Source of the DNA: Ischnura elegans
Taxonomy: Eukaryota; Arthropoda; Insecta; Odonata; Coenagrionidae
NCBI RefSeq assembly: GCF_921293095.1
Contig: NC_060257.1
Span: 68,766,472 to 68,830,471 of the forward strand
Direction of reading: 5' to 3'
Length of the DNA stretch: 64,000 nucleotides
Shown here: in pieces, positions 33,485 through 61,400 of the stretch
How positions within the stretch are numbered: the first letter of the stretch is position 1
Layout: each line of letters begins with the position of its first letter
Notes under the pieces: model-generated
The model's database searches: none
What the model was told of the DNA's origin: nothing
Seen by the model: only the letters and a program-made list of their open reading frames with translations
Program-made: the position numbers and the translations under genes

Positions 33485-36121
33485 CTACCTACCTACCTAC
33501 CTATGTGGCCACTCAAACCTCAGGAGGTTTTTGGCCTCACCAACAACATGTCGCCATCTATCTCTATCCGCCATCCATTCTGCATCTGCTCTCATCTTCC
33601 CTAAGTCCCTTTTCACTTGGTCCTGCCATCTTAGTCGGGGTCGCCCAAGCGGACGTTTTCCTCGGGGTTGATTTTCAGATACCATTCTTAGCATGGACTC
33701 ATCTTTTCTCCTCTTTACATGACCGGCCCATCTTAATCTCCTGCTTTTTATTTGCGCTATTATATCCGGATCTGTATATAATTCTCTGAGCTCTTTGTTG
33801 GTTCTGATCCTCCATACTTCATCTTCATTAATAGGACCATATATTGTTCTGAGGATCTTATTTTCAAAAACTATCAATTTCCTCTCCTGGTTTTTTGTTA
33901 AAGTCCATGTTTCGGATCCGTAGAGTATTACTGGTTGTATTATTGTCTTGTACAGTTTTGATTTAGTTTTTCTTGACAGAAGTTTACATTTTAGCAATGA
34001 TTTAAGAGCCCAATAACAGTTGTTCCCGAGAAGTAACCTTGCATTTATCTCTACCTCCTCTTTATTTTCCTGTTCTATGGTTGCTCCTAAGTATTTAAAA
34101 TTTGTTGTCCTTTCAAAGGTATAATTTTGGACTTTTAAAGCCTCTGCTTCTATATTTTCTGCGTGTCGACCAACAATTAAGTATTTTGTTTTTTCTTCGC
34201 TAATTTCTAATCCTACTTTTTTGGTTTCTTTTATCAGAGACTCTGCAAGAGTTTTTAACCCATTTGCATCCTCCGCCAATAAGGTCACGTCATCTGCAAA
34301 AGCTAGCAGATTTATCTTTTTGCCGACTTCTATCCCCGGTTGTTGCTCCTTTACGGCTTTAAGTGCATTTTCTAATGACAGGTTAAAAAGCAATGGTGAG
34401 AGTGCATCTCCTTGTCGTACCCCCGTGACTACATCAAAACCTTCTGAAAATTCATTATTTATCTGTACTTTGCAACTTGAGTTTTCTGTACATATCTGAG
34501 CCAGTTTGACTAGTTTGTTTGGGATTCCCATTCTCCTGAGATATTTCCACATTTGGCTTCTGTTGATACTGTCGTACGCCTTCTTAAAATCAATAAAGAG
34601 GAGGTGCGCATCTCTATTGAACTCCCAATACTTTGATAAGATTTGTTTAATGATAAAAAATTGATCAATCGTAGACATTTGTTTTCTAAAACCTGTCTGG
34701 TGCTCTCCTATAATTTCTTCCGAGTATTCCTGTATTCTGTTGTACAGTATTTTGGACAGTACTTTGTAAGCCGTGTTTATTAAAGATATTCCCCGATAAT
34801 TGCTGCATACTAACCTGTCTCCTTTTTTATGCAGCGGGACTATTATAGAGAGGTTCCATTCTTTTGGTATTTTTTCCTCGTTCCATATTTTCACTATTAG
34901 TGCATGCAGCTTTCTTAAGAGAGCATTTTCCCCGGCCTTGAGGAATTCTGCTGGTATACCATCCTCTCCAGGAGCTTTGTGGTTTTTTAGAGCTTTTATC
35001 ACGTTGCATACTTCCTCCTCAGATGGATCTTGGATCTGTATTTGAGGATATATATATAATTCATCTTCTTCTTCTGCTGGGATCCTGCCCGCATTAAGGA
35101 GGTTGCTAAAGTAATCCTTCCATATATTAAGGATATCTTTTTGGTTACAGGTAATTTTACCATCTTTACCTTTGACCCCAAATGTTCTAGGTTTAAAACC
35201 CTGTTTGAAATATCTCACCGAACGGAAAAATTCTCTAGAATTGTTATTTGTTCTGTCTTCTTCCGCTTTCTTTAACTGATCTTTCACAAAATTTCTTTTA
35301 GCGGTCCTAAGTGTCTTGTTTGTCTTTCTATTGATTCTTAAATATTCTTCCCTTTTTTCATGGTTGTCATCTGTAAGTAGTCCTGCCTTGGCTTTTTTTC
35401 TCTCCTCTATCATTTGCCGGCAGTCTTCATTGAACCAAGTTTTCTTGTTCTTTCTATTATTTTGGAACCCAACTACTTCCTTCCCTACTTCCTGAATTGA
35501 ATCTCGAATAACTTTCCATTTTCCTTCTATAGAATCCTCTTCTTCCTTTTCTAAGGCTTGGAACCTGTTAGAAAGTTTAATCATGAACTCTTTCCTAATA
35601 TTTGGGTTATCAAGTTTTTTGAGATCAAACTTTTGTTTTGTCTTTTGTATATCTCTTCTGTTTTTGCACACTTTTTGCCTTACTTTTATTATTATCAAGT
35701 AATGGTCCGTTCCACATTCTGCTCCCCTCTTGCTTCTAACGTCTGTGATGCAGCTTTTATGTCTATCCTCAGTCAAGACATGATCAATTTGGTTTTTTAC
35801 TTGTCCATTTGGAGAGACCCAGGTATACTTATGAATATCTTTTCTTGGGAAGGTGGTCGACATGATCTTGAGATTTTTTGCGCTTGCAAAGCTTATGAGC
35901 CTCATTCCATTTTCATTAGTTGTTTCATGCAAACTGTTTCCTCCTGTATATTGTTTCCAGCTTGGTTCATTTCCTACTTTTGCATTTGCATCACCAAGTA
36001 GAATTTTCATATCATAGTCTGGTATACTTGTCATCAGCTGATCCAGATTGTCATAGAAAAAGTCTTTTACATCATCCTCTGCATCCTCTGTAGGTGCATA
36101 AAAGCAAATCACAGATATGTT
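33485..36121 (-). mobile_element. RTE-like LINE, 5'-truncated, with exact target duplication
   Basis: The minus-strand element carries one long open frame and ends in a short tandem tail: (GTAG)n on the minus strand, at 33485-33503. The 10-bp duplication CTAATTATTC occurs at both flanks (33475-33484 and 36122-36131). The 5' end falls inside the endonuclease domain, the usual outcome of incomplete target-primed reverse transcription. The tandem-repeat tail and protein layout fit the RTE clade. An uninterrupted frame and an identical duplication point to a recent insertion. Having lost the N-terminal endonuclease and its promoter, it should be immobile by itself. Confidence 0.9.
33497..36112 (-). 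CDS. LINE ORF: partial AP endonuclease plus reverse transcriptase, RTE-like
   Basis: About 870 codons are open to a TAG at 33497-33499. Only a GTG, no ATG, sits at the 5' edge because the N-terminus is lost. In order: the C-terminal AP-endonuclease part with GDANAKVG (about residue 40), WVSPNGQVKNQIDHVL and GTDHYLI (about 130); the reverse transcriptase with HKAPGEDGIPAE (about 385), motif A FIDFKKAYDS (about 505), motif B GVRQGDALSPLL (about 570) and catalytic FADD (about 606); then ETWTLTKNQERKL and RLRWAGHVKRR...GRPRLRW, typical of RTE-type C-termini. It copies its RNA at a nicked target. All reverse transcriptase catalytic aspartates are present. Confidence 0.9.
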   Translation of the reverse strand: MICFYAPTEDAEDDVKDFFYDNLDQLMTSIPDYDMKILLGDANAKVGNEPSWKQYTGGNSLHETTNENGMRLISFASAKNLKIMSTTFPRKDIHKYTWVSPNGQVKNQIDHVLTEDRHKSCITDVRSKRGAECGTDHYLIIIKVRQKVCKNRRDIQKTKQKFDLKKLDNPNIRKEFMIKLSNRFQALEKEEEDSIEGKWKVIRDSIQEVGKEVVGFQNNRKNKKTWFNEDCRQMIEERKKAKAGLLTDDNHEKREEYLRINRKTNKTLRTAKRNFVKDQLKKAEEDRTNNNSREFFRSVRYFKQGFKPRTFGVKGKDGKITCNQKDILNIWKDYFSNLLNAGRIPAEEEDELYIYPQIQIQDPSEEEVCNVIKALKNHKAPGEDGIPAEFLKAGENALLRKLHALIVKIWNEEKIPKEWNLSIIVPLHKKGDRLVCSNYRGISLINTAYKVLSKILYNRIQEYSEEIIGEHQTGFRKQMSTIDQFFIIKQILSKYWEFNRDAHLLFIDFKKAYDSINRSQMWKYLRRMGIPNKLVKLAQICTENSSCKVQINNEFSEGFDVVTGVRQGDALSPLLFNLSLENALKAVKEQQPGIEVGKKINLLAFADDVTLLAEDANGLKTLAESLIKETKKVGLEISEEKTKYLIVGRHAENIEAEALKVQNYTFERTTNFKYLGATIEQENKEEVEINARLLLGNNCYWALKSLLKCKLLSRKTKSKLYKTIIQPVILYGSETWTLTKNQERKLIVFENKILRTIYGPINEDEVWRIRTNKELRELYTDPDIIAQIKSRRLRWAGHVKRRKDESMLRMVSENQPRGKRPLGRPRLRWQDQVKRDLGKMRADAEWMADRDRWRHVVGEAKNLLRFEWPHR

Positions 36122-39778: not shown

Positions 39779-40045
39779 AGAACCCTTCCCGATGGTTCCA
39801 GAATGTTACAACAGTCTATACAACTAATTTCACACGCTTGCGTTATACTTTCGATGGTCACCGAATATTCCAGATGATCCAGAATCCTCGAGAATCATCT
39901 AAAGTCTGAGACATCACCGTGATGACGGGAAAACCAATTTCCCCACCATTGACTCAACCAGCTGGCCGTGGAGGGGGATGAGGGATTTTCGGCAATCAGA
40001 GTCGCCTGGCGGGAAAAAGTAGCACCACTCGACCGTGTATAAATA
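39779..40045 (+). promoter_or_regulatory. Heat-shock promoter (HSE clusters and TATA box), probably of the sHSP gene
   Basis: 39779-39809 reads as alternating 5-bp heat-shock units: aGAAc, one extra base, then cTTCc cGATg gTTCc aGAAt gTTAc. A second cluster at 39863-39894 contains GAAtaTTCcaGATgaTCC and a shifted GAAtcCTCgaGAA. A TATAAATA box lies at 40038-40045, putting the start near 40070. HSF trimers bind such arrays. The next + strand chaperone coding exon is the sHSP at 48257, so I infer this drives it. Confidence 0.65.
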
Positions 40046-40069
40046 TGAATCTGTATGATGCATTATTTT

Positions 40070-40159
40070 AACTTCTTCCAAATTCGAGAGCTGAGAAGAC
40101 GTACAGTTCCAAGTGCCAGAACTTCAACAAGCAGCTGAGCAGCTTTCATCTCAACAAAG
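40070..40159 (+). other. Putative 5' untranslated exon of the sHSP gene
   Basis: The region 25-30 bp downstream of the TATA box contains no ATG and ends at AACAAAG|GTTGGA, a usable but weak donor. The sHSP coding exon starts at a splice acceptor with its ATG one codon inside, so a non-coding first exon must exist upstream. This is the best-placed candidate and would give an 8.1-kb first intron. Confidence 0.4.
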
Positions 40160-40774
40160 GTTGGAAAAAACTGACACTATCAGTGTTTTTAGGAATATGA
40201 CGATTTTATTGAGAAGAGGGGTAGAATTCATAGTTCAACCCTCTTCGGAGAAATATCGAGGGTTTTCATTCGTGTGTTGAAGAAATTATCGGATTTTGGC
40301 GGTGGTTTAATACACTCAAGCGGGTAAATTTTTACACATTTGAATAATATGCGCCATAGAGAATTCCTTATTCCATGACATACATAGACGTTGTGCGAAG
40401 TTAAAACTGAAATTTCTTCGGGCACATTGCTCTCTTTAGAATGCTAAAATCCCGTAAATAACTAATAATTTGTCTTCTAAACTCATAATAGTGAATTATT
40501 TCTATGATGGCGATTTTTCATGCCGTATCCCATGCAACAGAATATTTTAATTTGCAAACGAAGCAATTTAGGCAACAGAATCTTCCAGAGGACACGAATA
40601 TTAATTTAAACAAATCATATTGTTAAAATGATATTCGCTTATACGATAATCTTCAAGTGTGAAGATGGATGCTAGTTTTAGTAATGTAGGTACATGCGAA
40701 AAAGTAAATTCGTTTTAAATGTTCGCGCCTTTGGTACTGCGCATCTGCGGGCCATGAAAGCTGCGCAAGCTTCG

Positions 40775-41174
40775 ATCCATCATGGCGGATGTTTATTTAC
40801 TTCGTTTGCAGACTATCGGTCTTTGGTTACCTACCAAGGAATGTTTTCTATATTTACGATAGTATTGTAAACTTGAGGGAACGGTGATTGCCATTCCGCC
40901 CTCACTGCGTTGAGCTTCTCCACAAGAGTTTTTTTCATGACCCCGCGGACCTTTATTGCGGTCCACGGGGTTATTTTCGGAAGCTGTTCATCCGTTTTCG
41001 GAGATAAGTGCGGCTTCAATGCTGAATTATCGATGGTGGAGTTTAATTGTGCTAAGGTGATTTCTCGGGTACATTTGCCCGTTTTCGAAGATTGGTGAAG
41101 ACTTCCGGCCACGGCTGACTTTCCCTATCGCACTGGAGGAGAGATTTTTCAGCGGACTGCTGTCATCGATTGAG
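40775..41174 (+). promoter_or_regulatory. Housekeeping-type promoter and possible non-coding exon
   Basis: This is a locally CpG-richer stretch with a YY1-like CATGGCGG at 40781-40788 and an ETS-like CTTCCGG at about 41101, without a TATA box. It ends at GATTGAG|GTAATT, a good donor at 41174/41175. A 26-codon open frame (MADVYLLRLQTIGLWLPTKE...) starts at the ATG at 40782 and may be an upstream ORF. The BED-finger exon at 43512 needs a 5' exon, and this region would supply it. Confidence 0.35.
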
Positions 41175-41545: not shown

Positions 41546-42699
41546 TTTAGCCGCTATGCGAACCTGCAAGTTTTTATTCAAATAATATTATTTACTGAGT
41601 ATTTGCAACCTGTCAGCTTTTCACCCTTCTAAAAAATAGTATTTTTGTAGAGGTTGATATTTTTCCGCTGATCCTGAATAGCATTTAGCATTACCAGAAA
41701 TGTCGGAAAAAGACACCCTCTTCAAGTCTAATTTTGGGATACCTTCTTATATCGCTTAGCTCGTCAACCGTCATTGTTATAGTTTATTTGTACTTCGTTT
41801 ATTTATTGGGTACAAGTTTCATATTGACTATTTAGATGGTATCTCATACAATTTAAGACCCCTGCCCTCTCCAGGATATTGTGAGATGATATCAATTTAA
41901 TTTATTTAATTAGAGATATCAATTTGAATTACTACATTCCAAGTGTCGGTTCTGATCAGTGCTTTCATTTAGTCAACCAAAGTTTTCATCTTTCAATAAA
42001 TACCTATACTGCCAAGGAAATTTCTTAATTGTGTCCAGCTGCCCTAGCTTCTTAATTCTCTCAATCTTACTATCTCGTGATGAACTGTTTCTGGCCTGTA
42101 CTCCAAGTAGGTGAATGTAATACTGCTGATGTATGGGGAATTGAATCTTTACCCATCCTCAAGACAATTGACATCCATTTTACCCTTTCTCTAGCTAGTT
42201 TTACCCTTGCATCGCCATGAAATTTCAAAAGTGTATGCATCAAAACAAAAATGATTTCAGTTACACCAATTTTTCTCTAAGGGGCATCTGTAAGGGATAG
42301 GGTCTTGGCAATAAGACTTCTTAAAAAAATGATTCTGCAGTGGAGAATATAAGAAGAAATTCTAGCCTAACTTATTGTTACCTCCACTGCACAAGCGCTC
42401 AACAATTGCTCACCGAATCATATCCGCTCATCTAGGAGCTGAACAACATGAATACGCTCAGCTGGCAATAGCCAGAGCATAAACGCTCACCTCCAATTCT
42501 CCAAGATTCAGAGGTGAGTGTATGCATGTGAGCGGATTTGATTTGGTGGGCGATTGTCAAGCACTTGTGGAGTGTAGGTATCGTTATACTTCGGTAATGG
42601 TGATACCAAGGGTTATAACTAGGTGCATGTAAATGAGGTCCAATAAGTATGTAAAAGAAATCTTGTATTGTGATGAAAATTGTAAAGTTAATGAGCATT

Positions 42700-42900
42700 G
42701 CAGAAAAGTTTCTCTGGTTTTCCATCGGTTGATTTCGTCCATGTCTCCCGACGTTTTGATCCGCGACTTGCTGATCATCCTCAGGGGATTTCCCGAAATT
42801 CATTCGGAAGATCCCCTGAGGATGATCAGCAAGTTGTGGATCGAAACGTCGGGAGACATGGACGACATCAACCGGTGGAAAACCCGAGAAACTTTTCTGC
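42700..42900. repeat. Long palindrome with 90-bp arms and a hammerhead-like motif
   Basis: Arms 42700-42789 and 42811-42900 are close reverse complements separated by a 21-bp loop. Both contain GTCTCCCGACGTTTTGATCC-like and ATCCCCTGAGGATGATCAGC-like sequence in opposite sense. In the right arm, + strand, 42812-42854 shows all conserved hammerhead ribozyme core bases. Palindromic doubled termini with such ribozymes are known from Penelope-like and related retroelements; assignment to that group is inference. Confidence 0.8.
42812..42854 (+). ncRNA. Candidate minimal hammerhead ribozyme
   Basis: Layout: stem I 5' TCCC (42812-42815); core CTGAGGA = CUGANGA (42816-42822); one unpaired T; stem II GATC (42824-42827) with an 11-nt loop and GATC (42839-42842); core GAAA (42843-42846); very short stem III CG (42847-42848); UC before the cleavage point (42849-42850); stem I 3' GGGA (42851-42854). 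All core nucleotides are present. The weak points are the bulged T at position 10.1 and the almost absent stem III, although Penelope-type hammerheads are known for minimal stem III. The mirror copy in the left arm has lost the first G of GAAA. Confidence 0.45.
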
Positions 42901-43511
42901 AACTGATACGCCGGGAAAACCTAAGATCTTAATGAGCATTCTTTAATTGTAGATTGAGAGGACAATTGCCCATTTGAAACTTCCTGTGAGAATAAGGGGC
43001 CTCATAAACTGACAGGATAATCAGGAATTGGATGGCTCAGTAGGCCGGCGCTTATTTTTCAAAAATGATCTGATTTAAGAATTTGTGGTCTCAAAATGAG
43101 CGAATCAGTGAGAAAAGAATAATAAAAAATTTCCAGGTTCGTGCGACGTCAGATAGCCGTGAGGCGCCTATAGGGCCTGCATGTAGTTATTTTTAATATT
43201 GAGTTTTTCAACCCGGATAAAACATTTCCTATGGTAAACATGACATTTTAGATCCCTCTGGACAAATATTTCAACCGTTATGATGTATCTGAATTCCTTC
43301 ATGCCAAAACGCTACCTCAAAGGTGCCCGCCTCCCTGACACCAGCCACGCCTTTAAGGCAGCGTTTCGGCAGGTGTTTTTCAGGCATGGTGCAAACATCA
43401 TGGCTGTTAACAATAATGTAAATGTGATTAATTCAGAGTACTTCCTTGATTACTTGAGCCAATTTTTGATTTTCATTCTTTCTTTTTCAGTTATACAAAT
43501 AGTTCAGCAAA

Positions 43512-43970
43512 ATGGTGAAGAAGAAGGGTCCTGCGTGGGATTTTTTTTATGAAAAAGATAAAGGCGTGCAATGCAAATTCTGCAGTAAAGAGTACAAACA
43601 TTCTAATGTCAATAAAATGACAAGGCATATTGTAAAGTGCTTCGAGTGCCCTTCCAATTTGAAGGACATTCTTAATGTAAAGCTGAATAATATGATCCTC
43701 AAAAAAGCCCAGTTTACCACTCCAAAGAGGAAAATGACAGCCCAAGAACAAAACGACGTAGAAGATGATGGGTCTTTTGTGTCGGATCCAGGCCCAAGTT
43801 CGAGTAATAGTCAAAGACCATCCAGTTCATTGTCCACCACATATAGCCCTGAAAGGTATGGCTCCCATGGAAATGAAGGCTCAGTTTTTATTCGACCTTC
43901 ATCCTCAACATCAACTAATGGTGGAGTAGATTTACTCCCTTACAATGACCAAATGGATTCTCACTCAAAT
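43512..43970 (+). CDS. BED-type zinc-finger exon (hAT-derived family)
   Basis: An acceptor TTTCTTTTTCAG ends at 43490. The ATG at 43512 starts 153 codons that end at a consensus donor (AAT|GTAAGT). The N-terminus has the BED aromatic W9-D-F-F and the zinc ligands C21-x2-C24...H39-x3-C43, as in MVKKKGPAWDFF / VQCKFCSKEYKH. A Ser/Thr-rich linker follows (residues 90-150). BED fingers bind DNA and occur in hAT transposases and their domesticated ZBED relatives. No transposase catalytic part was found downstream. The exon ends in phase 0, and the next plausible + strand exon is the sHSP exon at 48254, also phase 0. Confidence 0.7.
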
Positions 43971-45179
43971 GTAAGTAGACTTCTACGTAATTATTCAATA
44001 AATGATACAAGATTTTAATATGAGACTGGTTCATCATCATGAGTCAGCAGTCAGCATCTCTTTCCATAGCCTTAAATCCCATACACCTGTCCTTTGACAA
44101 TTGCCTTCATCAGGCTATCGTTGGAGGAAATTGAAGTAAAACCTTGAAGGGAAGCTACTTTGTGCCATTGTTCAAATTACAATGAAAAAAATTTTTGTCC
44201 TCACGCCTTTGTTATTTTTATTGAAATCCTATGGATTATAAATACATACATATAAACATGACCCATGCAGGCAGGACCTATGGTGTCATTGCATATTTTT
44301 GCTTTTTCGATATCGATGTGAAAAATATGATATTTAAATGGCGTGTATCACTTACAATATACAGCAAAAAAGTTTTACCCTGGGGTTGATTTCCTAAAGC
44401 TACAAATTTTTACTAATAACTCTCTCGTCGCCAAACTCTGACCCTTGCAAGTACTCCATAGTGATTAAAATGAATGATTTTTTTTGTGATTAGGGCTAAA
44501 TCTCCCATGTTAGATAATGGGACAGATAGTTGTCCAGTGCAGCAGAAGCAACAAGAATCATTGGATGCACTAGAAAGCAAGAACAATAGCTTCCCCTAGT
44601 ACCAAATGTTAAATCACAAATGGAATGAAATCTATAAGAACTTCATGGCAGTGAAACTTTGTGCTCAAATATCCTGGGGGATTTTTGAAATCATCATCAG
44701 TCAGCAATCCTAAGATTGGTTTTTAAGGATGCGTGAGTAGTACTGCGATTGGCCACCGCGGCTGACAAAATGGAATTCAGCACTCAAGTTGACTATTATA
44801 GTGTATATAGCAAGCAGAAAATCCCAGGCCAATGCATTAGAACGACTTATCGACTTTAAAAACGATATTATTACTTGAGTTTCATGGTATCCTCAGGGCC
44901 TACTGTTGGCAGATTTCTGAACTTACTGGCCCCGATAGCTCTGTAACTGAAACTACTCAAATCAACTCGACATTAGTTTTGCTACTGGAAGCTCTTGAGT
45001 CGAGTGCCAACTGTTCGACTCGACTCGAATTTTCAAATATGTACTCACACATCTCTATTGGTTTTACTAGGCTCTCCCCTCAGTTCTCCTATCAGCTTAT
45101 CTTCAGCACTTACATGATTCTTCTGCTTTACATCCTTCATCACCTACACTATTATTCAATACGAGACCCTCTCTAGTTC

Positions 45180-45480
45180 TCTCCATCCATCTATCCTTCA
45201 GTGAGTATTTTCATCAAGACTTCTCATACTTCTTCCATCTATCCTACAGTGATTATTTTCATCAAGATTTCTCTGACTGCTTTTCTTCCTCATCATTCCC
45301 ATCTATTTGATCTTCATCATACTTCAGTGGCTTCACACTTCGAAAGCTCTGTCTTTGATTTCTCTGCTACTGTCATTGTCCATGCATCACTACCATAAAG
45401 AAGCATCCTCTTGATGTATGTCGCAATCAGTCCCAATAAATTTCTTCCTTTCTTCAACTCTTATAATCCTAGCTTTCAAA
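45180..45480 (-). pseudogene. LINE relic, C-terminal fragment
   Basis: On the minus strand, IATYIKRMLLYGSDAWTMTV and AEKSKTELSK can be read (about 45345-45430). This matches the YGSEaWTm(t)...E...L family motif that follows the reverse transcriptase in RTE/BovB-like LINEs. The continuation decays into stops. It is a dead fragment between the BED exon and the sHSP exon. Confidence 0.5.
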
Positions 45481-46050
45481 GCTCAGAAAGTGAAAGTGAT
45501 ATCATTTTTTTTTTATATTTCCCACACTTACAGAATAAAATTTCTTCTATTAAGTGAAGCAATCATAATTTCAGCAACCCACACTATTTTTTCCTTGAAT
45601 TGCATTTGAAATTACATGTGATAAATGGCAAGAATTGCTATCATACACAAAAAAAATTTCAAAATTAACTGTTTTATGCCAATCTTGATAAAACTTATAT
45701 GTATGTGATATGCAATGTCACCAGAAATATATTACCTAATTTAAAAATTTCCTCTACCCATATTTTTTCTGATCTCACTTAGTAATGTTATTGTATTTTA
45801 AAATTATGAGTGAATGGTATTGATTTTTTTCATTCTAACGTAACTTTCCTTTCTATCTATCAAATTCTTTCAATGAATTGCAATTTCAGACGTGAGGGTA
45901 AGACTGTAAAGTCAAGGCATGGGTCTGTCTGTTTTCTGTTGCTCATTGATGTTCTTGAGGGTATGTTTTTAGTGCTTTTTGACATTTCTCTGACATGTCT
46001 GGCTATTCTGAGTATGAATGTCAAGATTTAAATTACTTGTGAGGAGTAAT

Positions 46051-46236
46051 CCGGCCTCTGTGGTGCCGGGGTTAAGTCCTTGCCTGCCAAACTGAAGGTC
46101 GTGGGTTCAAGTCCCATCTGGGTAGGTTGCCCCTACCCAGGGAATGGTTGTGTGTCATTGATTTATGTTATTTCCTCCTATGTAAAAGGCCTTAAATGAG
46201 CTGTTTTTGGGGTGATGAAAATAAATAAATAAAATT
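46051..46236 (+). repeat. tRNA-derived SINE, copy 2
   Basis: The 5' tRNA-like part CCGGCCTCTGTGGTGCCGGG contains an A-box-like segment. GTCGTGGGTTCAAGTCCC carries the B box GGTTCAAGTCC (46104-46114). After GGGTAGGTTGCCCC a unique 3' body ends in a tail AAATAAATAAATAAAA. It is in the same family as the minus-strand copy near 41446. Confidence 0.8.
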
Positions 46237-46697
46237 AGGGTAGCAATTGAGATTCTTAAGAACCTTGAAAATAAAGTGGGGCAGATATTTACTCCCCATT
46301 GTGCAAATGCATCATTCAAAATGAATAAAAAAATATTCACCATTTGCATTGTGTATCTGGAACTGATCTGGATGTCAAGACCTGAAGGAGAAAACCTGAG
46401 TCTACGGTGACAAACCTAAGCCGGAGGAAACCAGAAATACCGGCTTCTTCCATATTTTACCTGTATATTTTGCGAGACATAATTATGCACTCAAAATATT
46501 TTAAAAAGGTTGAATAATAAAGTTTGTTGTATAGAAAATTGCTAGTTTGTTTCTCTTATTTGCTTGTTACAGGCCCTAATATTTAGTGTGAAAACCGCCT
46601 TAAAACAATGTCGTCATGGGTTTGTGTGGAACTGCCAGTGATAGTTGTGAAAATCATATACACCTTGGTATTTATGAATTTTGGGTATATACTAGGG

Positions 46698-46995
46698 CAG
46701 TGGCACAGCTAGGGGGGGTTCAGGGGACAAAATGCCCCCAGAGCTCAGAATTTTGTTTAAGTTTAATCCATTTTACTTAATTTAATTAATATTACTTACA
46801 GAATAGTGTAAATATTAATAAAATATCCCTCCGACAGCTGTAAAACTCACCATTTTGAACCGTTTATCTTGAAATTTTTCTGAAGGAGTGCCCTTGCACC
46901 TCCCGCTTACCCTAGTGGGTATTCCAAAACCCCCAAACACCCTAGTATTAGTTGTGCCTAAAACCCTCCCTAGCCTCAATTCCTAGCTGCCCCTA
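46698..46995 (+). mobile_element. hAT-like MITE family A, copy 3
   Basis: It starts CAGTGGCACAGCTAGGGGGG and ends AATTCCTAGCTGCCCCTA. The interior (AATATCCCTCCGACAGCTGT) is nearly identical to copy 1 in the same orientation. The flanks TACTAGGG and TTCTAGGT are imperfect 8-bp repeats, so this copy is older or its ends have mutated. Confidence 0.75.
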
Positions 46996-48256
46996 TTCTA
47001 GGTTATCTAACTAAAAAGCATGTTGACAATACATTTGAAAAACACTCAAAATGTATGAATTACCTCTAGAAAAAAATCCCAATAAATATACTTGGATTAC
47101 ATGTATGAATTATTATTAGTAAAAATTTACAAATGCACACACATTTAATTTTTGGGATCACTGCTTGGAACCATTCAACTTCACTAAGTTTTTTAGAAAC
47201 ATCAACTGATAATGCTTCCTTGATGATTTCCAATTTTACCGACCTTTGATAATAGTCTATCACTCAGGACAGATGGCATTATCATTGGCAATGACACAAT
47301 TGAGATCAAACGAAATGGTCAAGATCGGAGTCGAAAAATCGAGTTTTAATCAAAACTCGAGGATCGATCTCAATTCCCTCGATCTTTGGAATTTAAAACT
47401 TGATTTTCGATCAGAATCAAAATCGATTTTTCCAGCACTAATTATTATTGACATTTCATTTTGCAATTCAAGTCACATTGACCCTAGAAGTTTCTGAGTT
47501 GCAGAGACAGTTTCGTCATGTATGATCTTATCCAGTCCTGGCGAAAATATTTTATCTAATAGCTTGATGAATATTTTAGGGCAAAATGTGATAATTGCCT
47601 ATCATTTATATGGTATGCACTTCAATGGGCAGCTTGCGTAATGTGAGTAGTATGTTGCCAGTACAAAATTATCAGCTAACAAGATATTCTATAGTTATTT
47701 TTGTTTTTAATGCGATATTCAAGTTGTAAATGGCCTCTTTTGACAACTGTGATAGCCACCGTGGACAACACGGTGCTGTTAAAAGGCATGTGTAGTTTTC
47801 TCTGCCTATTTCTGTTCACCCCCAAAAGTATGTTTAGGACCTATTTGAAGTATATTACATATTTTATGTGTATTATGCAGTATTTATCCACATAAAATTT
47901 AAATTAAAACATTGCTGGTATTTGAATGCTAATAATATCATAGATCATCAAGTTCCCCTGATGTCTTTCATTCTGATCAGGCTAATGGTGATACTGGATT
48001 TCCATCCCTTTCTTGTGGTGCACATTAGCTAAATTATCAGCCTCCTCCAAAAAACCAATATCAGTATGAAAATCAATTAGGTCATAGTAAAGTTCTCTCT
48101 AGAATATTTATAATTTGTTCAAGAAGATTTAGTAATAATTTAAAATGTTTGAATTTTATTCTTATTTAATGGTTCTGATTCTATCAGGACATTTGCATAT
48201 TAAATCCTCATTTGCATTGATTTTTAATGTGATCATATCTTTTCTTTCATCAGCAG

Positions 48257-51115
48257 ATGGCTTTCTACCCTTTTGCAATGCCTCCGAATGAGTCAATGGA
48301 AGCAATGCACAATTTTTTTCGGGAAGCTCAGCAATTTGTCCAACCATTTATGGCCATGGGCATGGCACAAGCTCAAGGCCAGCCGCAATGCGGTCGCTTT
48401 GGACAGCGCCCCAACTTTCACCACCAGACTCAGAGCAGAGCATCGTCCAATAGCCATCATGAGGACGATGATTTCCACATTGAAATAGACGTGCATGACT
48501 TTGCTGCGGGAGAGATCTCAGTGAAGAAAGTGGACAACAAAATTGTCGTTGAGGGGAATCACGATGCTAGGGAATCTGGTGGTATAACTGCCGCTCGTCA
48601 TTTTTTGCACCGCTACACATTACCGGATGGTGTGAAGCATGATGAAATCAAATCATCCCTATCGTCTGATGGGATCCTCACTGTTAGTGCCCCAAAGGTA
48701 AGGCTAAACCTCAACTCACGGTAGCCAATTGTACTTTTGGCATTTTCAGCCTCATTTTGAGTGGGATCTTGGAGTCTTTCCATTAATTTCCCTTAAAATT
48801 TGGTCTGAATAATGCTAACAATGGTTAGTGAAGGAGGATATTCCTTGTGGAAAATGCATTCATCTAGGGAGAACTACGTGTTCTTTCGGAACATTCATCT
48901 AGTTAATTTGTTACTTAATCTCTTGGAACTAGCTTTAAAGCATAATGGAGACATAAAGGTCATTAGCTACCACTGAAGAGACTACCGTTAGCAATTCTAA
49001 ACATTACTTAGGCCACAATGCAGAACTTAAACAAGGGGTGATTATGGCTCTCAGAGTACCTCTGGAATATTCATTAACCCTATCGGTTTAACTCTCCCTC
49101 TTTTCTTCTTTTTTTTTCTTTTCATTCTTTTTAACTCTCTTACGCACCAACTTAGCAGTAACTAAAAATGCGGATTGAAAGGAGGAAGAGAAATTCATTG
49201 TAAGGAGAGGAGAACTCATTCTAAACATCGGCACCCTATGAAGTCTCTTTTTAATGTATACAAATTGTAATATGTATAATGGAATATTACAGCATCGTAC
49301 TGCCGTGCCCTCAATTTATGAATTATTTAAACTCCAGGGGGCATTCAAAATTTACTCTCTGGAGTGGGCTTGTCATGGCAATTTTACTGTACATATAAAA
49401 ATTGCATTCCCATTATTCATGTGCAGGTATTTCCTGATGTAAAAAAGGGCTGATTAAAGAATTATAGTTGCATACTTTTATGCTTGATAATGAAAGTATG
49501 TCGTACTTATTTATATCTAATTCATTTTTATTTTTACATCTGATTTGTCTCTTGTCAGCAGTGGACAGGAACAAATACTGAGAGGTTCAAGTTTAGGGCC
49601 TCTACAACGCTCATGTCTAGTGTGAAGCGTACATATATGAAAGGGGTAATAAAAAAATTCAGATTACTAGAAACGAAGTTATTTTGCAATCATAAAATTC
49701 TATGTTTCATTAATTTGCTTCAGTGTAAAAAGATCATATGAAAAATAATTAAAATAAATATATCGTGTATGATGTTGGGTTAGATGTGATGGAAGTTCTT
49801 AATATAAGTAAAATTGGGCATTGCAATATTTCCACTGAATTTTATTTTGACAATACGCGTTTTGTTGCTACAAACAATATTATACACAACAAACACTTGA
49901 TATGTAATGTTGTTTGTAGCTACAAAACGCGTAGTGTCAAAGTAAAACTCAGTGGAAATATTGCAATGTCCAATTTTACTTATAAAATAAAGATGTCTGA
50001 ATAACAGCGATAACCTGATGCTTTTATGAAAAGGTTATTTTAGAATTCTTTTAGATTTCCTTGCAGTTTCAAGGAACAAATTCACTAAATAGAACCTGAA
50101 TGTGTGTGTGTGTGAATGAGACCTTTGCGGAAATTTGTTCCTTAGAGCAAACCCTTGAGGTGCGTGAGTGTGAGCATTTTTCTTTATTTTAATATTTTTG
50201 TCTATTTCTTGTGTGTGAATGGGTCACTGGCATGAGCGGAGTCTTCGCAAACCTGAATGTGTGTGTGAATGAGACCTTCGTGGAAACTAGTTCCTTAGAG
50301 CAAATCCACGAGGTGCATGAATGTGAGTGCGCAAATCTGCAAGGTGAGTGTGTGAGCTGCGCAATTGTTTGGTTTCATAGTGTTTTAGCTTGATTTCTGT
50401 ATTTTACATCAAATAAAGACATACTTCAGCCTTTTAACTCCCCCCCCCCACTTTGCCCACCGAAGAGTTCGGCCTTGGGGAATTTGTTCTCTTTCAACTG
50501 TTCAACGGCTGTAGATCGTTCAATCACTTATATCACTATATAGATATTAGAACCAAGCTGTAAAATTCTTACTTTTCAGAGTATTTTTCTTATGAAATTG
50601 CTAGTTTTAATTAACTTTTATCTGGATTTTAAGAGCCAGAATAGTGTCTAAATTCATTTCCGAGCACCCAATTTTCTAAAAATTTTCCTGGGGAGGACCC
50701 TAGGAATTACCCGATAAGAAGGGCCCCAGCTGGACGCAGGGCTCCCAATTGCCCCTGAAAATGGATCTCATATAAGTTGTATTTGTACTAGTATCAGCCT
50801 CACTTATTATTCGAACCTCTTTTTATGTTGTGATTATAACTGTCAGTTTTATTTAAGGTGTCACCTATCGTGGCATCAGCTCTAAACTAGTTAAATGAGT
50901 CTTCCTTTCTATGACTCATCCAACTCTCTTTGACGTCACACATGTATTTTGTGTTCTTAAGCCTTCTGTGTCTGTTTACTTTCCAGAATCACACACAGAA
51001 GCCAGCTGAGGAACTTATCATCCCTATCACCCCCACTGGAATGCCGGCAAAGAAGCAAGATTGTGGTGAACCTTCTACTTCAAAAAATGATAATGAGCCA
51101 AAAGAAAATATGTAA
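48257..51115 (+). CDS. Small heat shock protein (alpha-crystallin domain), two coding exons
   Basis: Exon A 48257-48697 and exon B 50987-51115 join in phase 0 to give 189 residues. Small heat shock proteins are ATP-independent chaperones that hold unfolding proteins in oligomers, mostly in the cytosol. An N-terminal Met/Gln/Phe-rich arm (1-68) precedes the alpha-crystallin domain (71-147, DDFHIEIDVHDF...), with the dimer-interface strand RHFLHRYTLP (114-123) and the signature DGILTVSAP (138-146). The C-terminal tail carries the I-x-I anchor (IPI, 159-161). It resembles the l(2)efl/Hsp20 group of insects. The ATG lies directly behind a tandem CAG-CAG acceptor, so the 5' UTR is spliced. AATAAA at 51322-51327. 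The distant HSE/TATA promoter near 39.8-40.0 kb is the likely driver. Confidence 0.9.
49806..49988. mobile_element. Fold-back MITE in the sHSP intron
   Basis: The left half (ATAAGTAAAATTGGGCATTG, then CAATATTTCCACTGA and ACGCGTTTTGTTGCTACAAA) is repeated in reverse complement by the right half, ending CAATTTTACTTAT. Arms are about 75 bp with a short central spacer. It is about 180 bp and non-coding. The target duplication is unclear. Confidence 0.8.
50096..50335. repeat. Two direct repeats, about 160 bp apart
   Basis: CCTGAATGTGTGTGTG...GAATGAGACCTT and GTTCCTTAGAGCAAA...GAGGTGC occur at about 50096-50165 and 50253-50325. The (GT)n runs vary. It is a small local duplication in the sHSP intron. 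Confidence 0.55.
50987..51115 (+). CDS. sHSP exon B (C-terminal extension with I-x-I motif)
   Basis: The acceptor is TACTTTCCAG. It encodes NHTQKPAEELIIPITPTGMP and a polar tail (QDCGEPSTSKNDNEPKENM) to TAA at 51113-51115. IPIT is the inter-dimer anchoring motif. If intron A were retained, exon A would read on to a stop at 48722-48724, giving a product without this motif. Confidence 0.85.
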   Translation, partial: NHTQKPAEELIIPITPTGMPAKKQDCGEPSTSKNDNEPKENM

Positions 51116-51445
51116 ATTTTGAATCAAAAATCGATAAAATCTCTATTGTTTGTTATCTTGTGCAGAGTCTTTGAGGATGTGAAAGAAAGTCTATGTAGGT
51201 ACTCCATCTCCTTTTTCTTAAAAAATCCTATTCATGTTCTTCAATCTGTGTCCTCTTTTTTTGTCTTTGTGTGTTAGAATGTGTAAGATATGATAATTTT
51301 TTTATGATTTTTTTTCTTAAAAATAAATATCTATATATTTTTATGATATTTATTACCTTTTGTGTACCTTATTCAAAGTCCCCTAGGGAAAATGCAGTCT
51401 TATTTGGTTCATAGAGTCAGTTCATCAGCTAGGATAAAGCATCTA

Positions 51446-51710
51446 AACCCTTTCGCTCTCATGACAATTTCCGTTTTTACTCCCAGAAATCTCAAACCCG
51501 ATTCATAAATATCCATTTTTAAAAAAATGTAGTTATTGCAGAGATAATTCTTGAAATGTGATGCTGAAATTTTGACTTGCTTTTTAGAATGTATTTACGT
51601 TTAAATGAAATTTGAAGTTATATATTTTTTAATAGTAAATAATTGAACAAATATTTTCAAAAAGACAAAGCCGAAATATCAGTACCTTGAGCAACTAAGG
51701 GCTAAAATTT
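51446..51710. repeat. Possible decayed short inverted-repeat element
   Basis: CTAAACCCTTTCGCTCTCATGA at the left and the complement of the right end TTTAGCCCTTAGTTGCTC resemble the ends of the TTAA-type element at 37892. It is AT-rich inside and has no coding potential. Boundaries are uncertain. Confidence 0.3.
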
Positions 51711-52199
51711 CATGTAATACCCTCTATAGATGTGTTATTTGGAGGTAGACTAGAACATCCTACCACTGACTGACCTTGCACATCTCTTTTTAGCATTTGC
51801 AATATCTGTAGCATTATTGGCAACTTACAATCCTGACTTGATTCACTCTACCCATTTATCCTTGTTAGTTGGATGGTATTATTGAAGGAAGATCAATTGG
51901 ATAGGTCGTGTGAGTAATGTGGAAGTTGAGTCATTCCATTTCAGCTGAACCATGGCATGCAACCCACCAGCTCGGATTTTCATGAAATTTGGTGCACATG
52001 GTTGGTTTACGCAAAATAAATACTGCTTATTCATTTCAGGCCTCTGTCTAAAGTCATTCCAGAACTAAAGCAACCTAATTTTCAGCCTAAGGTATAAAAG
52101 AAATGCATCCTCAGTTTTAGCAAAGTCAGTTAGTATTTAAAAATCTACTTATCCTAAAATTGAAGCAGAAAAGGTGTGAAAATTTTCTCTCACAAATTT

Positions 52200-54000
52200 T
52201 TTAATGTAATTCGAATATTATATCAGATTCATCTTATTTTGAAGTGTCATTTAAGCAATGCAAATATAAATATTACTTCCTTTTAAATGTCCAGAGTCAT
52301 TAGATGCATGCCCTTACCCCCAGAGTTATTAGGGCAACTGGATCCTTTGCTTTCACTAGTTATTCTAGAAAATATCAAATAGAAGTCGACTGCTTTAAAT
52401 TTTATTGCCTGGTGGTGAGCCAAAAAGTAGTCCATGTATTCAAGAGACTAACCTCCCAAGAACTGTGTTGCAACCAATCGAATGCATTCATTGGAAATTT
52501 TAGTGAAATGTTATGCTCATCCACTTTCTTGGAAACAAATTTAGCAATGTATCATGGGTAAAAAAATGGTAAGTTGAATAAAATCCTTTGGTATTATCTG
52601 TCTCTCAGACTACCAAATAAGCTTAGTCACATATTTGCAGAGCTGGCCCTGACTGCAATGCATGAGGAATTCAGTTTTATGGACACTTAGTCTGGTAGGA
52701 AATTGCATTAGAGGCTATTATGTGATCCACAGAGCCACCTATATAATAAGAACGAGCATGCTGCGCCCGCTCCCAGCGGGCTTCCCCCGCTCTTTTCAAT
52801 GCAGGTCTGCAGAGGGATAGGCGCGTTTCTAATTTTAAAATGTAGAAAAAAAAGGCAGGGTCTTATGTACAAATTTAATTGGAATGTTCATGTACAAATT
52901 GAGGTCAGAGGACCTCTTTAAACACAACATTGGAAGTAATTACACTATCCTCTGTTAAACGCACATGATAACTCATACTTATGTATTAACAGGAGACTTG
53001 AATGTGGAATCAGCCGCATTTTGATAAAAGTTATTTAAAGAATGTGAGATATTGTTGCAAATGAACAAATGTATCAGTTTGTGCGCCTTAACGTCAGTAA
53101 TATTTACCGGTTTTTGTTTTTTTTAATTATTTAAAAACCAATTTTAGGAAACAATAACAATATTTAAGAAGTAAAATATGCCGTCGCATGTTCTCTGATA
53201 AACTCTTTGCATTTTGGTACCTCATTTGTAGAGTTTGGTTGTGTATAAGTTGAGAAAAAGGTATCTATACAGTAGAAATAATATAGAAGATGGGAAAAAT
53301 ATCAGGCTTAGGGGCAGGCTCCAAGCATAATTATGATTACTAGATGCACAGATTACTTTAATTCTGTTTAACCTTGTGGCCTAGCTCAGCTCTTATTATC
53401 TCAGAAGACAGATGCTAATTAGGCAACAAAGTTTTAACAAGTGCACTGCATGTTGATTATTTGTTAGCTCTGAAGAAATGAGTTCATGGGGGAGACCTAT
53501 AATAAGAATATACAAACTGAATGAAAAGCTTCATGGTGTATGGTGCCTTATGCACTCCAAAATTTCCTTCAGCTTTGTCTCAAAATCATTAAAAACTATG
53601 ATTACTTCCCTAATGTTTTTGGCATTGTGGGCATTCGAGAACAACAAGGGCCTATAAAGACTTAGGATAAGGAAGAGTGATTTTTGATTCCTGTGAAAGC
53701 GGCCAGCAGAAGTACCTAGTCAAGGTCCTACCACTTCAGTTAATGACGCTGAAAATACTAACTGGAGTCCGTTCATTCACTTTGAATAATAATTTAATTT
53801 CCATTAAATCTAAGACTCATATTGAAGGAGTTTCGGGCTTGGAATAGAAACTGAATAAATAGCGTTTAGTCCCTAAGTTTTTCTGATGTGCATGAAATAT
53901 CGAAACTATGCCACACTAACCTAATTTCTTCGTTGGCCTCATCTCTCAGGGAATATTTTCACTCCTGCACTTCAAGGAAGGTAGCCTTCAGTTGAAAGAA
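52200..54000. other. Intergenic sequence, little recognised
   Basis: No gene-like frames. A small GC hairpin (GCCCGCT-ccc-AGCGGGC) near 52767 follows CTATATAATAAGAACGAGC. It resembles Helitron-type debris but lacks the CTRR end, so it is not called. The stretch at about 51930-52010 shares phrases (GTCATTCCAT, ATGAAATTTGGTRCA) with 63553-63632, implying a dispersed repeat. Confidence 0.3.
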
Positions 54001-54039
54001 TATTAATATCGAGGAAACAAAACTTTATTAATATAATAA

Positions 54040-54168
54040 TTATGAGAAATTAGATTTGATTCTCCAAGAAATTAACACAGAAAAACCATATGTTCCAATT
54101 AAAAGGCTAAATATTACTTCTTCCTGACAATTGACTCTTGGGAACGTAAGTAAGATCGGTTTAAACAT
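54040..54168 (-). CDS. Micro-ORF 2, 42-aa putative single-pass membrane peptide
   Basis: It starts at an ATG 7 bp after the stop of micro-ORF 1 and ends at TAA (54040-54042). An AATAAA poly(A) signal (complement of 54024-54029) follows 10 bp later, so ORF 2 is terminal in a transcript of only about 300 nt. The peptide has a short N-terminal part ([17 protein letters not shown]), one hydrophobic segment ([18 protein letters not shown]) and a basic end (RIKSNFS), as in small mitochondrial or ER membrane proteins. The frame upstream is closed by TGA at about codon -36 and lacks another ATG. The family is unrecognised. Confidence 0.45.
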
Positions 54169-54175
54169 CGCGGCA

Positions 54176-54292
54176 TTACTCCTCGATGTAGGGATGCGGG
54201 CAATCACAGTCAAATTTTTCCTGATAAGGCGGAGGTGGGGGAATTTGTGAAGTGTCGCACTCGTACACGTCACTCAAGATTGTTGTACTCAT
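54176..54292 (-). CDS. Micro-ORF 1 of a putative bicistronic transcript, 38 aa
   Basis: The ATG at 54292 opens a 38-codon frame ending TAA at 54176: an acidic, proline-rich peptide with [20 protein letters not shown] and the acidic end IEE. It lies head-to-head with OSTC, 57 bp from that start codon. The composition (five prolines, a C-x-C pair, PY motifs) is unlike random AT-rich sequence here. I know no family for it. It overlaps the upstream region of OSTC, so a shared bidirectional promoter is implied. Confidence 0.4.
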
Positions 54293-54349
54293 GCGTCTCA
54301 CCAACAAATTTACTTTTTAGTGTAGGATCTAAGTGCATTGAGGAAAGTA

Positions 54350-55036
54350 ATGGAGAGCTTGTACAGGATACCATTTTATGTGCTAGAAGTGCCACATTTG
54401 AAGATAAAAAGGCCATCATGGCTTCAACAACCATCGGCAATGGTTATGTTTTCCTTCGTACTGCTCTCGTACTTCTTGGTCACTGGAGGTTTGTAGGGTG
54501 GTTTATTTGTCATATCGGTATTAATTGGGATTATGTTAACTCATGCCTTTGTATTTCGTTAGGTATAATTTATGATGTTATCGTGGAACCACCCAGCGTC
54601 GGCTCAACAACTGATGAACATGGTCATTCAAGACCGGTAGGGAAGCATTTTGTACGATGATTCTCCATGTTCTCAAATGCGTTATACTCAAAGTATTTCT
54701 TCAATTTCAGGTGGCTTTTATGCCATATAGAGTTAATGGGCAGTATATAATGGAAGGCCTCGCGTCCAGTTTCCTCTTTACCCTGGGGGGACTTGGATTT
54801 GTTGTTTTGGACCAAACGCACAGTCCATCAACGCCAAAGCTAAACAGACTGCTTTTAATATTTGTTGGATTCCTTTGCATACTTGTGTCATTCTTCACTT
54901 GTTGGATATTCATGAGAATGAAGTTACCGTAAGCACATGAAGTGTGGTCCTTACTATTTTCAATTTTATGTTCCTAAATTCGGGCTAATTTACTTATGAC
55001 ATATTTTCTTTTTACAGTGGCTATCTCCAGTCGTGA
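54350..55036 (+). CDS. OSTC: Oligosaccharyltransferase complex subunit OSTC
   Basis: Four exons (54350-54488, 54563-54636, 54711-54928, 55018-55036) join in frame to 149 residues, the same length as human OSTC. The product begins [15 protein letters not shown] and contains [18 protein letters not shown] (44-61), [24 protein letters not shown] (77-91) and FMRMKLPGYL at the end. All match the family from memory. It spans the ER membrane three times (about 31-48, 88-104, 117-137) and serves the STT3A-type oligosaccharyltransferase, linking it to the translocon for co-translational N-glycosylation. A T-rich AG (54319-54320) before the ATG may mark a 5' UTR intron. AATAAA at 55132-55137. Confidence 0.95.
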
Positions 55037-58400: not shown

Positions 58401-61400
58401 CTGATACAAACTAATTTGTTCACCTTAGCAACAGTTTAGTTTTCACCGTCACCGACTTTTTTACTTAGAGGCTTTATGGAACTTAAAGAGTAAGTACCAT
58501 ATGCTTGTCAGGGCCACATTGGTTATCAAAGAGCCCCTGCTTTGATGTGTTTTAAAAGGAAATGGTAGCCTTGAAAGATCCCAGGTTTCCCTGCACTGAC
58601 CACTATGCCCCAGATGCTCAGCTATAGACTCCCCATGTTTTCTCAAAAACTCTTTTGGAGGCCTTCTTTACCGAGAATGTTATGACTGATACCATGTGGT
58701 CAATATTCAAAATAATCAGAATCCTCAATCATATCAGTCATATAGAACTAAACAGATATTTATGGTGGAGTTGGTCAGAGTTGTCTAGTAATAGAAGGAA
58801 GGAGCATAGAATCTTTGCGACTGCACATGTCGCTTGGCTGTTAGAGATCCTTTAGTTACAAGTCAGGGTGTACTAAACTCCTTTGCAGAGGCTTTTCATT
58901 TATCTCTGTTCCTGGAAGTGTTTCCTTCACACCTGTACCCCTATTTGTAACTTCAGAAATCCTCTTTAGCAGTGGCATAACTGGGCCAGGGATGTGATCC
59001 GATATGAAAAAGCACTTTAAAGCAAGAAATTTCAATAGTTTCAGACCGCTGTCACTTTAAGGCACTAAACCAAAAAGGCATGAAACCGAAAAGGCACTGA
59101 ATGGGATGGCACGAAACCTCCTCAAATCCGAAATGACACTTCAAGGAAAAAACTGCCGATCCGAAAAGGCATGATAGTTTCGTACCATATAGTGGAATAT
59201 AGTTTTGGATCTTACATCTCACTCACTCAGAGGCGAAGAGGGGCCTGAAGAGGAAGAACTTAAGAATCTGTGAAAGATGGAATGGAAGGAAAGAGAAGGA
59301 AAGGTTATTGGCCACTCAAATGAGGTAGCAAGCTGGGGAATTCCATGCGGGAAGGGGTGGGAGAACATCTGTTTTTGGGACTCTATTGAGGGATTATACG
59401 GCAAATGCTGGGGTTGTCCACTCTTAAAGAAAGCGCCAAGGAGTTGTTTGAGAAGGTTTGGGCATCAGGTGAAGACATAGTTAAGGAGATAATGTGAAGT
59501 GGTCAAGAGTCTGGGGCATCTGGGGATAATGAGAGAGGGAATATCCAAGGGGCTAAGGAGAGACGAAAAGGGAAGAGGAAGGAGTAAAGAAGGTGGGAAG
59601 GGGTTGGGGTTTCTAACACGAGAAGTGAGCGCCTACGGATAAATAAACCAAAAATGGGAATTGAGATTGGACAATATTTCGGAAGGGAAGGGTCCGGGGA
59701 AGTAGTATGTTTATTTGAGAATAGAATGTTGAGGAGACGTGCATCTTTTGCAAAAAGTTGACCATTAAATAAATTAAGTTAATTAGACTGTACAATATAA
59801 TGTTCAATCTTTTTTCCTAGCTCTCCAGATGAATTAACTCTTAATGCATAGAATTTTAGCATCCATGTGACTTTGCAGTAGAGTAAGATTTTATCAGGTG
59901 TTTTGCAGGGAGAAATGAATCCTTTTGTGATTGCCATATGGATAAAAATGACATGTATATTATTAAATAAGATTAAAGAATATTAATGTATATTATAATA
60001 ATATTTTTAGAACAAATCAAATATGGGACTATGTATTTGTGTACACTATCGCGCCGGAAACTCTTTCACATTAGAAGTCCCTTGAAAAGTTTTTGCACCC
60101 CGTGTACGAAGCTCTCTCGTGTGGAGAGAAAGCACAAGTTCGCACCCGTCCTAAGGCTGGGACCCAACTCAGGGGGACGCTGATCCTATTCCTTGGCCGC
60201 TGTCCTAGACCCTAGAAGGATTAAAAGACTCCTTCACAGTGCCAGTCCACGGTGAATTGACTGAAATAGCCGTGTTATATATAATCAGATATTTGTTGTT
60301 CCCATCGATTATTTAATATACAAAATGAATTCCTTTTGTTTGTCTGAGCGTGAGGAAATTTTAAGCGAAGTTCTAAAGATCATATTGGCGGATTTTGACT
60401 ATTTCTATTCCATATCGGCTGATTTGGAACTGAACTGAACTCCGTTTATATTAATGCTAGAACTCCGATTAAAATTTCCATGTGATAAGCGAAAAATGAA
60501 GAATTCATGTCTAACTTCAGATATATAAGGTAAGCTACGAATATTTTTTTGGAAAAAACCCCACAAATAGCAGTGGATGACCGTACGGAGGGGATAGAAA
60601 AGGGTCGTTCAGTTCGAGGAAGGGCCTGTGCATGAGGGACATCCACTAAGCTGGTCTTTTGTGTCCATGGCGGTCCCTTTCCTAAACCCCCGCATGGCAC
60701 ATACACACGGTCAGGCATTTTAACCACTTTTTCGGATAATTTCATGCCACCCGGAATGAAACAATACGACGTGGACAATAAAGTGTATGGGATCCTAAAC
60801 TTTTAAAAGTGAAAAGTTTCGTGCCGGCCTGGTCCAAAATGAATAGGATCATTTTGTGCCTTTTCGGATTGGTCACGAAACGTTTGAAGAACGGAAAGTT
60901 TCGTATCGGATCACATCCCTGAACTGGGCATATGCTTTAGAAGGGGGATGGGATGGCCTGGGGTGGTATTCCCACTCTTATCAGCAAAAGTTTCATTTTT
61001 TAAATGCTCCTCCAAGGTACTTAACTCAGCCTCTGTGAATATATTTAAGAATACTCAATAAGTTATAATTTTAATGTGGATTAATATTCTTTCGGTATTC
61101 CCACCAGGTTTGAAACTCCATTTCTGCCGACTTTAAAAGCTCTGACTCGGGGCACGGAATGTTGCAACGCTGACAGGTCGGTGGAAATGAAACTTATAAC
61201 CCAGTGGGAATCCTGAGAGAAGTTAACCCATATTATTTGCCAAGAAAGCATCAAATCTTTCTAAAAAATATACTCACCTTCTAAGAACAGCAGGTGCTGG
61301 GCTTCGTGGTGCGATTGTTGCTTTTTACATTTTGAGTCTTGACAACGCAGCGATTTGAAAATTTTGTGTCCGTGGAAAAATTTAAAAAAAGGGTAAATTA

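Follow-up and report, generated by a model that had tools for sequence, protein, structure and literature searches.

A BED zinc-finger exon upstream of a small heat-shock protein gene in Ischnura elegans and its possible capture by that gene

Host-transposase fusion genes are said to arise by transposase capture, as Cosby et al. reportedly described in 2021. Fusions such as KRABINER, SETMAR and CSB-PGBD3 are named in an extract of PMC12062965, while an extract of PMC10027918 describes, for the domesticated hAT genes of the ZBED group, truncated forms in Octopus that lack an intact transposase and dimerisation domain. Here, we analyzed a 64,000-nt stretch of the genome of the damselfly Ischnura elegans (contig C12, NC_060257.1, C12:68766472-68830471; hereafter the window, whose numbering is used throughout), in which a BED-finger exon (43491-43970) lies upstream of the exons of a small heat-shock protein (sHSP) gene. 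Like the host-transposase fusions, the locus would carry a DNA-binding domain of transposon origin, encoded by an exon that splicing can link to host exons. Unlike in those fusions, the host part here is the domain of a chaperone, the exon for DNA binding would lie ahead of the host exons, in the leader intron, and the arrangement is known from genomic sequence alone. With the ZBED genes, including their truncated forms (extract of PMC10027918), the locus shares the BED finger, whereas the exon considered here would be placed inside an sHSP gene. The term 'HSP20' is absent from both PMC12062965 and PMC10027918, and in our literature searches, the looser of which covered titles and the beginnings of abstracts, no fusion protein of a BED finger and an alpha-crystallin domain was found, which does not prove that such a protein is unpublished. 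We propose, at a probability of roughly 40%, that a hAT-type BED exon was captured by the sHSP gene in the manner of host-transposase fusions.

The segment 43491-43970 on the plus strand is a genuine BED-finger exon, and the boundaries, start codon and phase given for it by an earlier, sequence-only reading of this DNA were confirmed. Its acceptor (TTTCATTCTTTCTTTTTCAG/TTATAC at 43491) is followed by an in-frame TAG and then by the ATG at 43512, from which 153 codons (43512-43970) run up to a phase-0 donor (AAT/GTAAGT; the intronic GTAAGT occupies 43971-43976). Because this TAG stands between acceptor and ATG, the segment cannot serve, in its own frame, as internal coding sequence of a gene lying upstream. 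The translation matched the zf-BED profile (PF02892) with E=1.9e-6 and 28.2 bits, against a Pfam curated cut-off of 20.6; the finger spans residues 7-43 (43530-43640) and carries the zinc-ligand pattern C2..H/C, seen as CKFC...HIVKC. The remainder of the exon encodes a Ser-rich linker, and such a linker follows the BED finger in hAT genes. Comparison with solved structures gave no good match (best E 0.26). Splice sites were scored with donor and acceptor frequency tables that had not been trained on the I. elegans genome. On this scale the acceptor reaches 9.94, within the top 0.06% of the 3486 AGs in the window, and the donor 4.11, within the top 1.35% of the 3475 GTs. Unspliced, the frame continues for 15 codons past the donor to a stop that ends at 44018, giving 168 residues from the ATG and 171 codons from stop to stop. 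No start position among the 24,643 tested in 36001-63540 (three exon regions excluded) was stop-free for 153 codons; in the whole window, nine plus-strand stop-to-stop frames are at least that long. Because of these nine the length of the BED frame is unremarkable and by itself weak evidence, and the case for the exon rests on the domain match and the splice sites.

The sHSP gene begins its coding part in exon 2 (48254/48257-48697, plus strand) behind a tandem CAGCAG acceptor, whose two sites score 7.13 and 6.69. The ATG stands at 48257 and 147 codons follow, with the alpha-crystallin domain starting at about 48455. Exon 3 (50987-51115, plus strand; acceptor score 6.49) adds 42 codons and the stop, for a total of 189 codons. 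The segment 48257-48697 matched HSP20 with E=2.5e-18, which makes the product a small heat-shock protein, and its relatives of solved structure include HSPB1 and alpha-B crystallin. OSTC lies downstream of the gene. The sequence-only reading had noted that either choice of the tandem acceptor continues the BED frame, and this proved correct: joining of 43970 in phase 0 holds for 48254 as well as for 48257, so that an in-frame open junction between exons, as in host-transposase fusions, is possible. The sHSP exon is also the next recognized plus-strand coding exon after the BED exon, and the BED exon is the only one recognized between the promoter-like stretches described below and the sHSP exon. 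The stretch 43991-54400 contains 18 acceptors with scores of 4 or above, five of which open a phase-0 frame of at least 25 codons, namely 48254 (156 codons), 48257 (155), 49559 (60), 50987 (42) and 52805 (38). Lowering the bar to 3 added 45071 (score 3.45; 79 codons) and 45096 (26 codons).

Sixteen other sHSP matches were found in the genome at E<=0.01, and the sequence of 14 of these loci was read (L006-L019, at C9:106.64-106.79 Mb, C9:111.9 Mb and C12:63.7 Mb), their introns being deduced from genomic sequence and not from transcripts. CAG stands directly before the ATG in 11 of the 14; the remaining three have CAG-GAG-ATG (L010), ACG in place of ATG (L017) or no N-terminus (L009). In 12 of the 14 loci, APK in the alpha-crystallin frame is followed by a Val codon (GTN), as would fit a donor; in L018 the Val codon follows APR, and in L010 it stands one codon further on. 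The family thus seems to be characterized by a leader intron that stops at the start codon and by another intron within the alpha-crystallin domain. We presume the gene to be of the insect l(2)efl type; it shares with that type the alpha-crystallin domain and has the gene layout of its paralogues in the same genome, unlike them having a putative leader intron of about 8 kb that would hold a coding exon. Within the tandem sHSP cluster on C9, a hAT-type DUF659 frame was seen at C9:106723542-106724003 (L027), about 4.4 kb upstream of the sHSP match L011.

Whole-genome searches (1,722,721,009 bases in 110 contigs) with the 153-residue BED exon returned a single match at E<=0.001, namely the exon itself. 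For its N-terminal 63 residues the next best match had E=3.9 (38% over 32 residues), and the exon would therefore not belong to a recent transposon family. The zf-BED profile matched at least 128 places (best 150 of 607 candidates scored); BED fingers appear to be common in the I. elegans genome, and the finger at 43491-43970 seems to have no close relative among them. No relative was confirmed in a scan of viral contigs. We also considered that the exon might be part of a repeat, and rejected this since, among the 40 candidates scored out of 535, matches of 43001-44500 to other places were confined to about 43029-43369, which precedes the exon. Likewise, no retrocopies of a fusion mRNA were seen; the BED exon has its single match, and among the sHSP paralogues identity is 41% for the best-scoring one and up to 51%, over shorter stretches, for others. 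In a simulation of neutral decay (2000 copies, assumed rates, indels making up 10% of changes), the share of copies whose BED frame had acquired neither a stop nor a frameshift was 7% at 5% divergence, 0.45% at 10% and zero at 20%. As no sister copy of the exon was found in the genome and its frame is intact, an old arrival under constraint would be the simplest reading under this model, while a single recent arrival, for instance by horizontal transfer, would escape the argument.

The statement of the sequence-only reading that no transposase or other BED-gene exon follows the BED exon held in profile, Pfam and tblastn searches. Profile searches of the genome with DUF659 and hAT-dimer listed no transposase body near the exon, one of the searches scoring 150 of 1723 candidates, so that a decayed copy could escape; the nearest ones listed on C12 are at 65.8 and 71.9 Mb (hAT-dimer) and at 59.1 Mb (DUF659), vs. 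68.81 Mb for the BED locus. Pfam searches with 20 of the 42 plus-strand frames of at least 45 aa in 44019-54153, minus-strand frames not being included, gave a best E of 0.023, all below the cut-off. A tblastn comparison of the window with the longest frames from 28 hAT loci (L020-L047) gave no match in 43.5-58 kb, and we read as nothing the weak matches at 18917-18976 (E 0.052), 41923-42111 (E 0.46) and 58833-58925 (E 0.94). A full hAT or ZBED gene, with a transposase body (DUF659 or similar) and a hAT dimerisation domain, was thus not found at the locus, families like DUF4371 lying outside the genome-wide search. Elsewhere, the profile searches showed that hAT genes are plentiful, and at several places BED and DUF659 matches occupy different frames with about 0.5-5 kb between them (e.g., C2:110983071 and C2:110985084). 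Eight BED loci were picked by hand for a donor scan. A donor scoring above 5 follows the finger in four of them: L060, where it lies inside a longer frame, L061 and L063, which are in phase 0 with a nearly identical peptide and are likely copies, and L066 (phase 2). No such donor was found in L062, L065 and L067, and for L064 the scan returned no finger. BED exons detached from their bodies are thus not rare in this genome. An sHSP exon as the next recognized exon after the BED finger was seen at the window locus only.

Two promoter-like stretches lie upstream of the BED exon. The densest 150 bp of heat-shock elements (HSEs) in the window is at 39786-39899 (plus strand), with five four-unit matches carrying at most 2 mismatches in 12; the maximum in 40 Markov-simulated windows was three per 150 bp. 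Single matches are often due to chance, as the simulations gave 12.2 per 64 kb. A TATA box (TATAAATA) follows at 40038-40045 on the same strand, and the stretch 39.79-40.05 kb thereby combines clustered HSEs with a TATA box, the upstream arrangement of heat-inducible genes. We infer that this heat-shock promoter serves the sHSP gene. The HSE cluster is 8.4 kb from the ATG of this gene; HSE-like matches lie within 0.3-3.9 kb of the ATG in 12 of 13 paralogue upstream regions, and the one other region has none in 2.8 kb. A nearer heat-shock promoter was sought and rejected, as only one weak HSE match (-139) occurs within 7 kb upstream of the ATG. A possible leader exon of the heat-shock promoter would extend from about 40068 to 40323 (plus strand), both ends being deduced, before a weak donor at 40324 (3.07); the strongest donor in 39.9-43.5 kb is at 42514 (7.88). 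The second stretch, at about 40.0-41.5 kb, is CpG-rich, with observed/expected CpG ratios of 0.89-1.51 in 500-bp windows starting at 40001-41001, and a few other windows (e.g., 38001, 42751, 55001) reach 0.97-1.02. It may mark a second, constitutive start, a possible first exon being 40780-41174 (plus strand; donors 41057, 3.83, and 41175, 3.73). Because the heat-shock promoter is upstream of the BED and sHSP exons alike, the BED exon probably sits in the leader intron of the sHSP gene. Both stretches named by the sequence-only reading are therefore present; its assignment of the fusion to the 41-kb promoter and of only the plain protein to heat shock is an assumption, since inclusion and skipping of the BED exon are conceivable for both transcripts.

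Under the capture that we favor, the sHSP gene would have the usual layout of its family, with a leader intron that starts at the heat-shock promoter (40.0 kb), ends at 48.25 kb and thus measures about 8 kb. This intron would hold a 5′ coding exon that once belonged to a hAT-type gene and comprises the BED finger and the Ser-rich linker; the transposase body of that gene would have been lost while the BED frame was retained. The exon would be an alternative one: inclusion, by joining of 43970 to 48254 or 48257, would yield a protein of 343 or 342 residues from the ATG at 43512, with a BED finger and an alpha-crystallin domain, and skipping would yield the plain 189-residue sHSP. Several results weigh against this proposal. 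The donor, which had been described as consensus, is so only on its intron side, having a T at -1, and a donor within the exon at 43856 scores slightly higher (4.56 > 4.11), although out of frame. The acceptor at 46573 scores 7.87, against 7.13 for the sHSP acceptor, and leads after 22 codons to a stop; acceptors as good are expected 0.2 (minus-strand rate) to 0.7 (plus-strand rate) times per 4.28 kb. Finally, because CAG at the ATG is a trait of the sHSP family and the acceptor was not made for the fusion, the in-frame match between BED and sHSP exons had beforehand about one chance in three. The features required by the fusion that the sequence-only reading proposed are in place, but in view of the 11 of 14 paralogues the acceptor at the ATG does not point to a junction shaped for fusion. 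We consider the fusion possible and economical, but it depends on this one-in-three frame match and on the absence of a better recognized partner.

An alternative, tenable although well short of even odds, is that a separate small BED gene is nested in the sHSP leader intron, transcribed from the CpG-rich stretch at 41 kb and excluding the sHSP exons. Such a gene would end either by read-through of the donor, giving the 168-residue product, or in a short terminal exon such as 46573-46641 (plus strand), which ends before a repeat at 46698-46993. The promoter-like stretch distinct from the heat-shock one fits this reading, as does the acceptor of the terminal exon, which outscores that of the sHSP exon; for the 4.28 kb concerned, the upper expectation of 0.7 comes from a plus-strand rate that includes true sites. 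Short terminal exons, moreover, slip past domain searches, and AATAAA motifs occur at 43997 and 46817, among others. Yet the former precedes the stop codon and the latter lies within an abundant repeat, and the 22-codon end, in our reading of its translation, has no recognizable feature. We think it unlikely that the BED exon is instead a relic: a 5′ exon from a defunct hAT-type gene that ended up in the intron, is open by chance or through recent arrival and gives at most low-level splicing noise. The abundance of hAT genes would agree with a relic, and so would an intron crowded by repeats (43038-43331, 46698-46993 and the inverted repeat 42698-42902); the nine long plus-strand frames, too, mean that an open frame alone proves little. 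Against it stand the lack of a sister copy and the improbability that a strong acceptor and all 153 codons of an open frame would both survive long neutral decay, an objection that a single recent arrival escapes.

The repeats of this region were also characterized. That at 43038-43331 (about 300 bp) shows mostly 76-84% similarity to its longer copies, and about 120-160 bp separate its end from the BED acceptor; its copies form inverted pairs in several places (40 of 535 candidates scored). The repeat at 46698-46993, likewise of about 300 bp and located in the putative leader intron, is very abundant (6931 first-look candidates), and full-length matches among the 40 candidates scored are 85-91% alike. 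Two inverted repeats have arms 92-93% complementary: 42698-42902, before the BED exon, with arms of 100 nt set 5 nt apart, and 49803-49984, after sHSP exon 2, with arms of 80 nt set 22 nt apart. Further upstream, 33497-36121 on the minus strand holds a long open retrotransposon frame (874 aa), in which domains of an endonuclease and of a reverse transcriptase were recognized.

Should the capture be real, damselflies might possess a stable alternative isoform in which a transposon-derived DNA-binding finger is joined to an sHSP. Under constitutive expression this isoform would tether a chaperone to chromatin or specific DNA sites, and upon heat shock the gene would give the plain chaperone; we regard this extension as quite unlikely at present. 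If the junction is used, a protein-folding domain would be added to those host domains that DNA-binding exons of transposons have captured, by way of a leader intron. Since an acceptor at the ATG is a trait of the family, any phase-0 exon in such a leader intron would fuse in frame. With the acceptor ending exactly at the ATG in 11 of 14 loci, the sHSP family would then be a natural trap for exons, in which a phase-0 coding exon arriving in the leader intron gives an in-frame N-terminal fusion.

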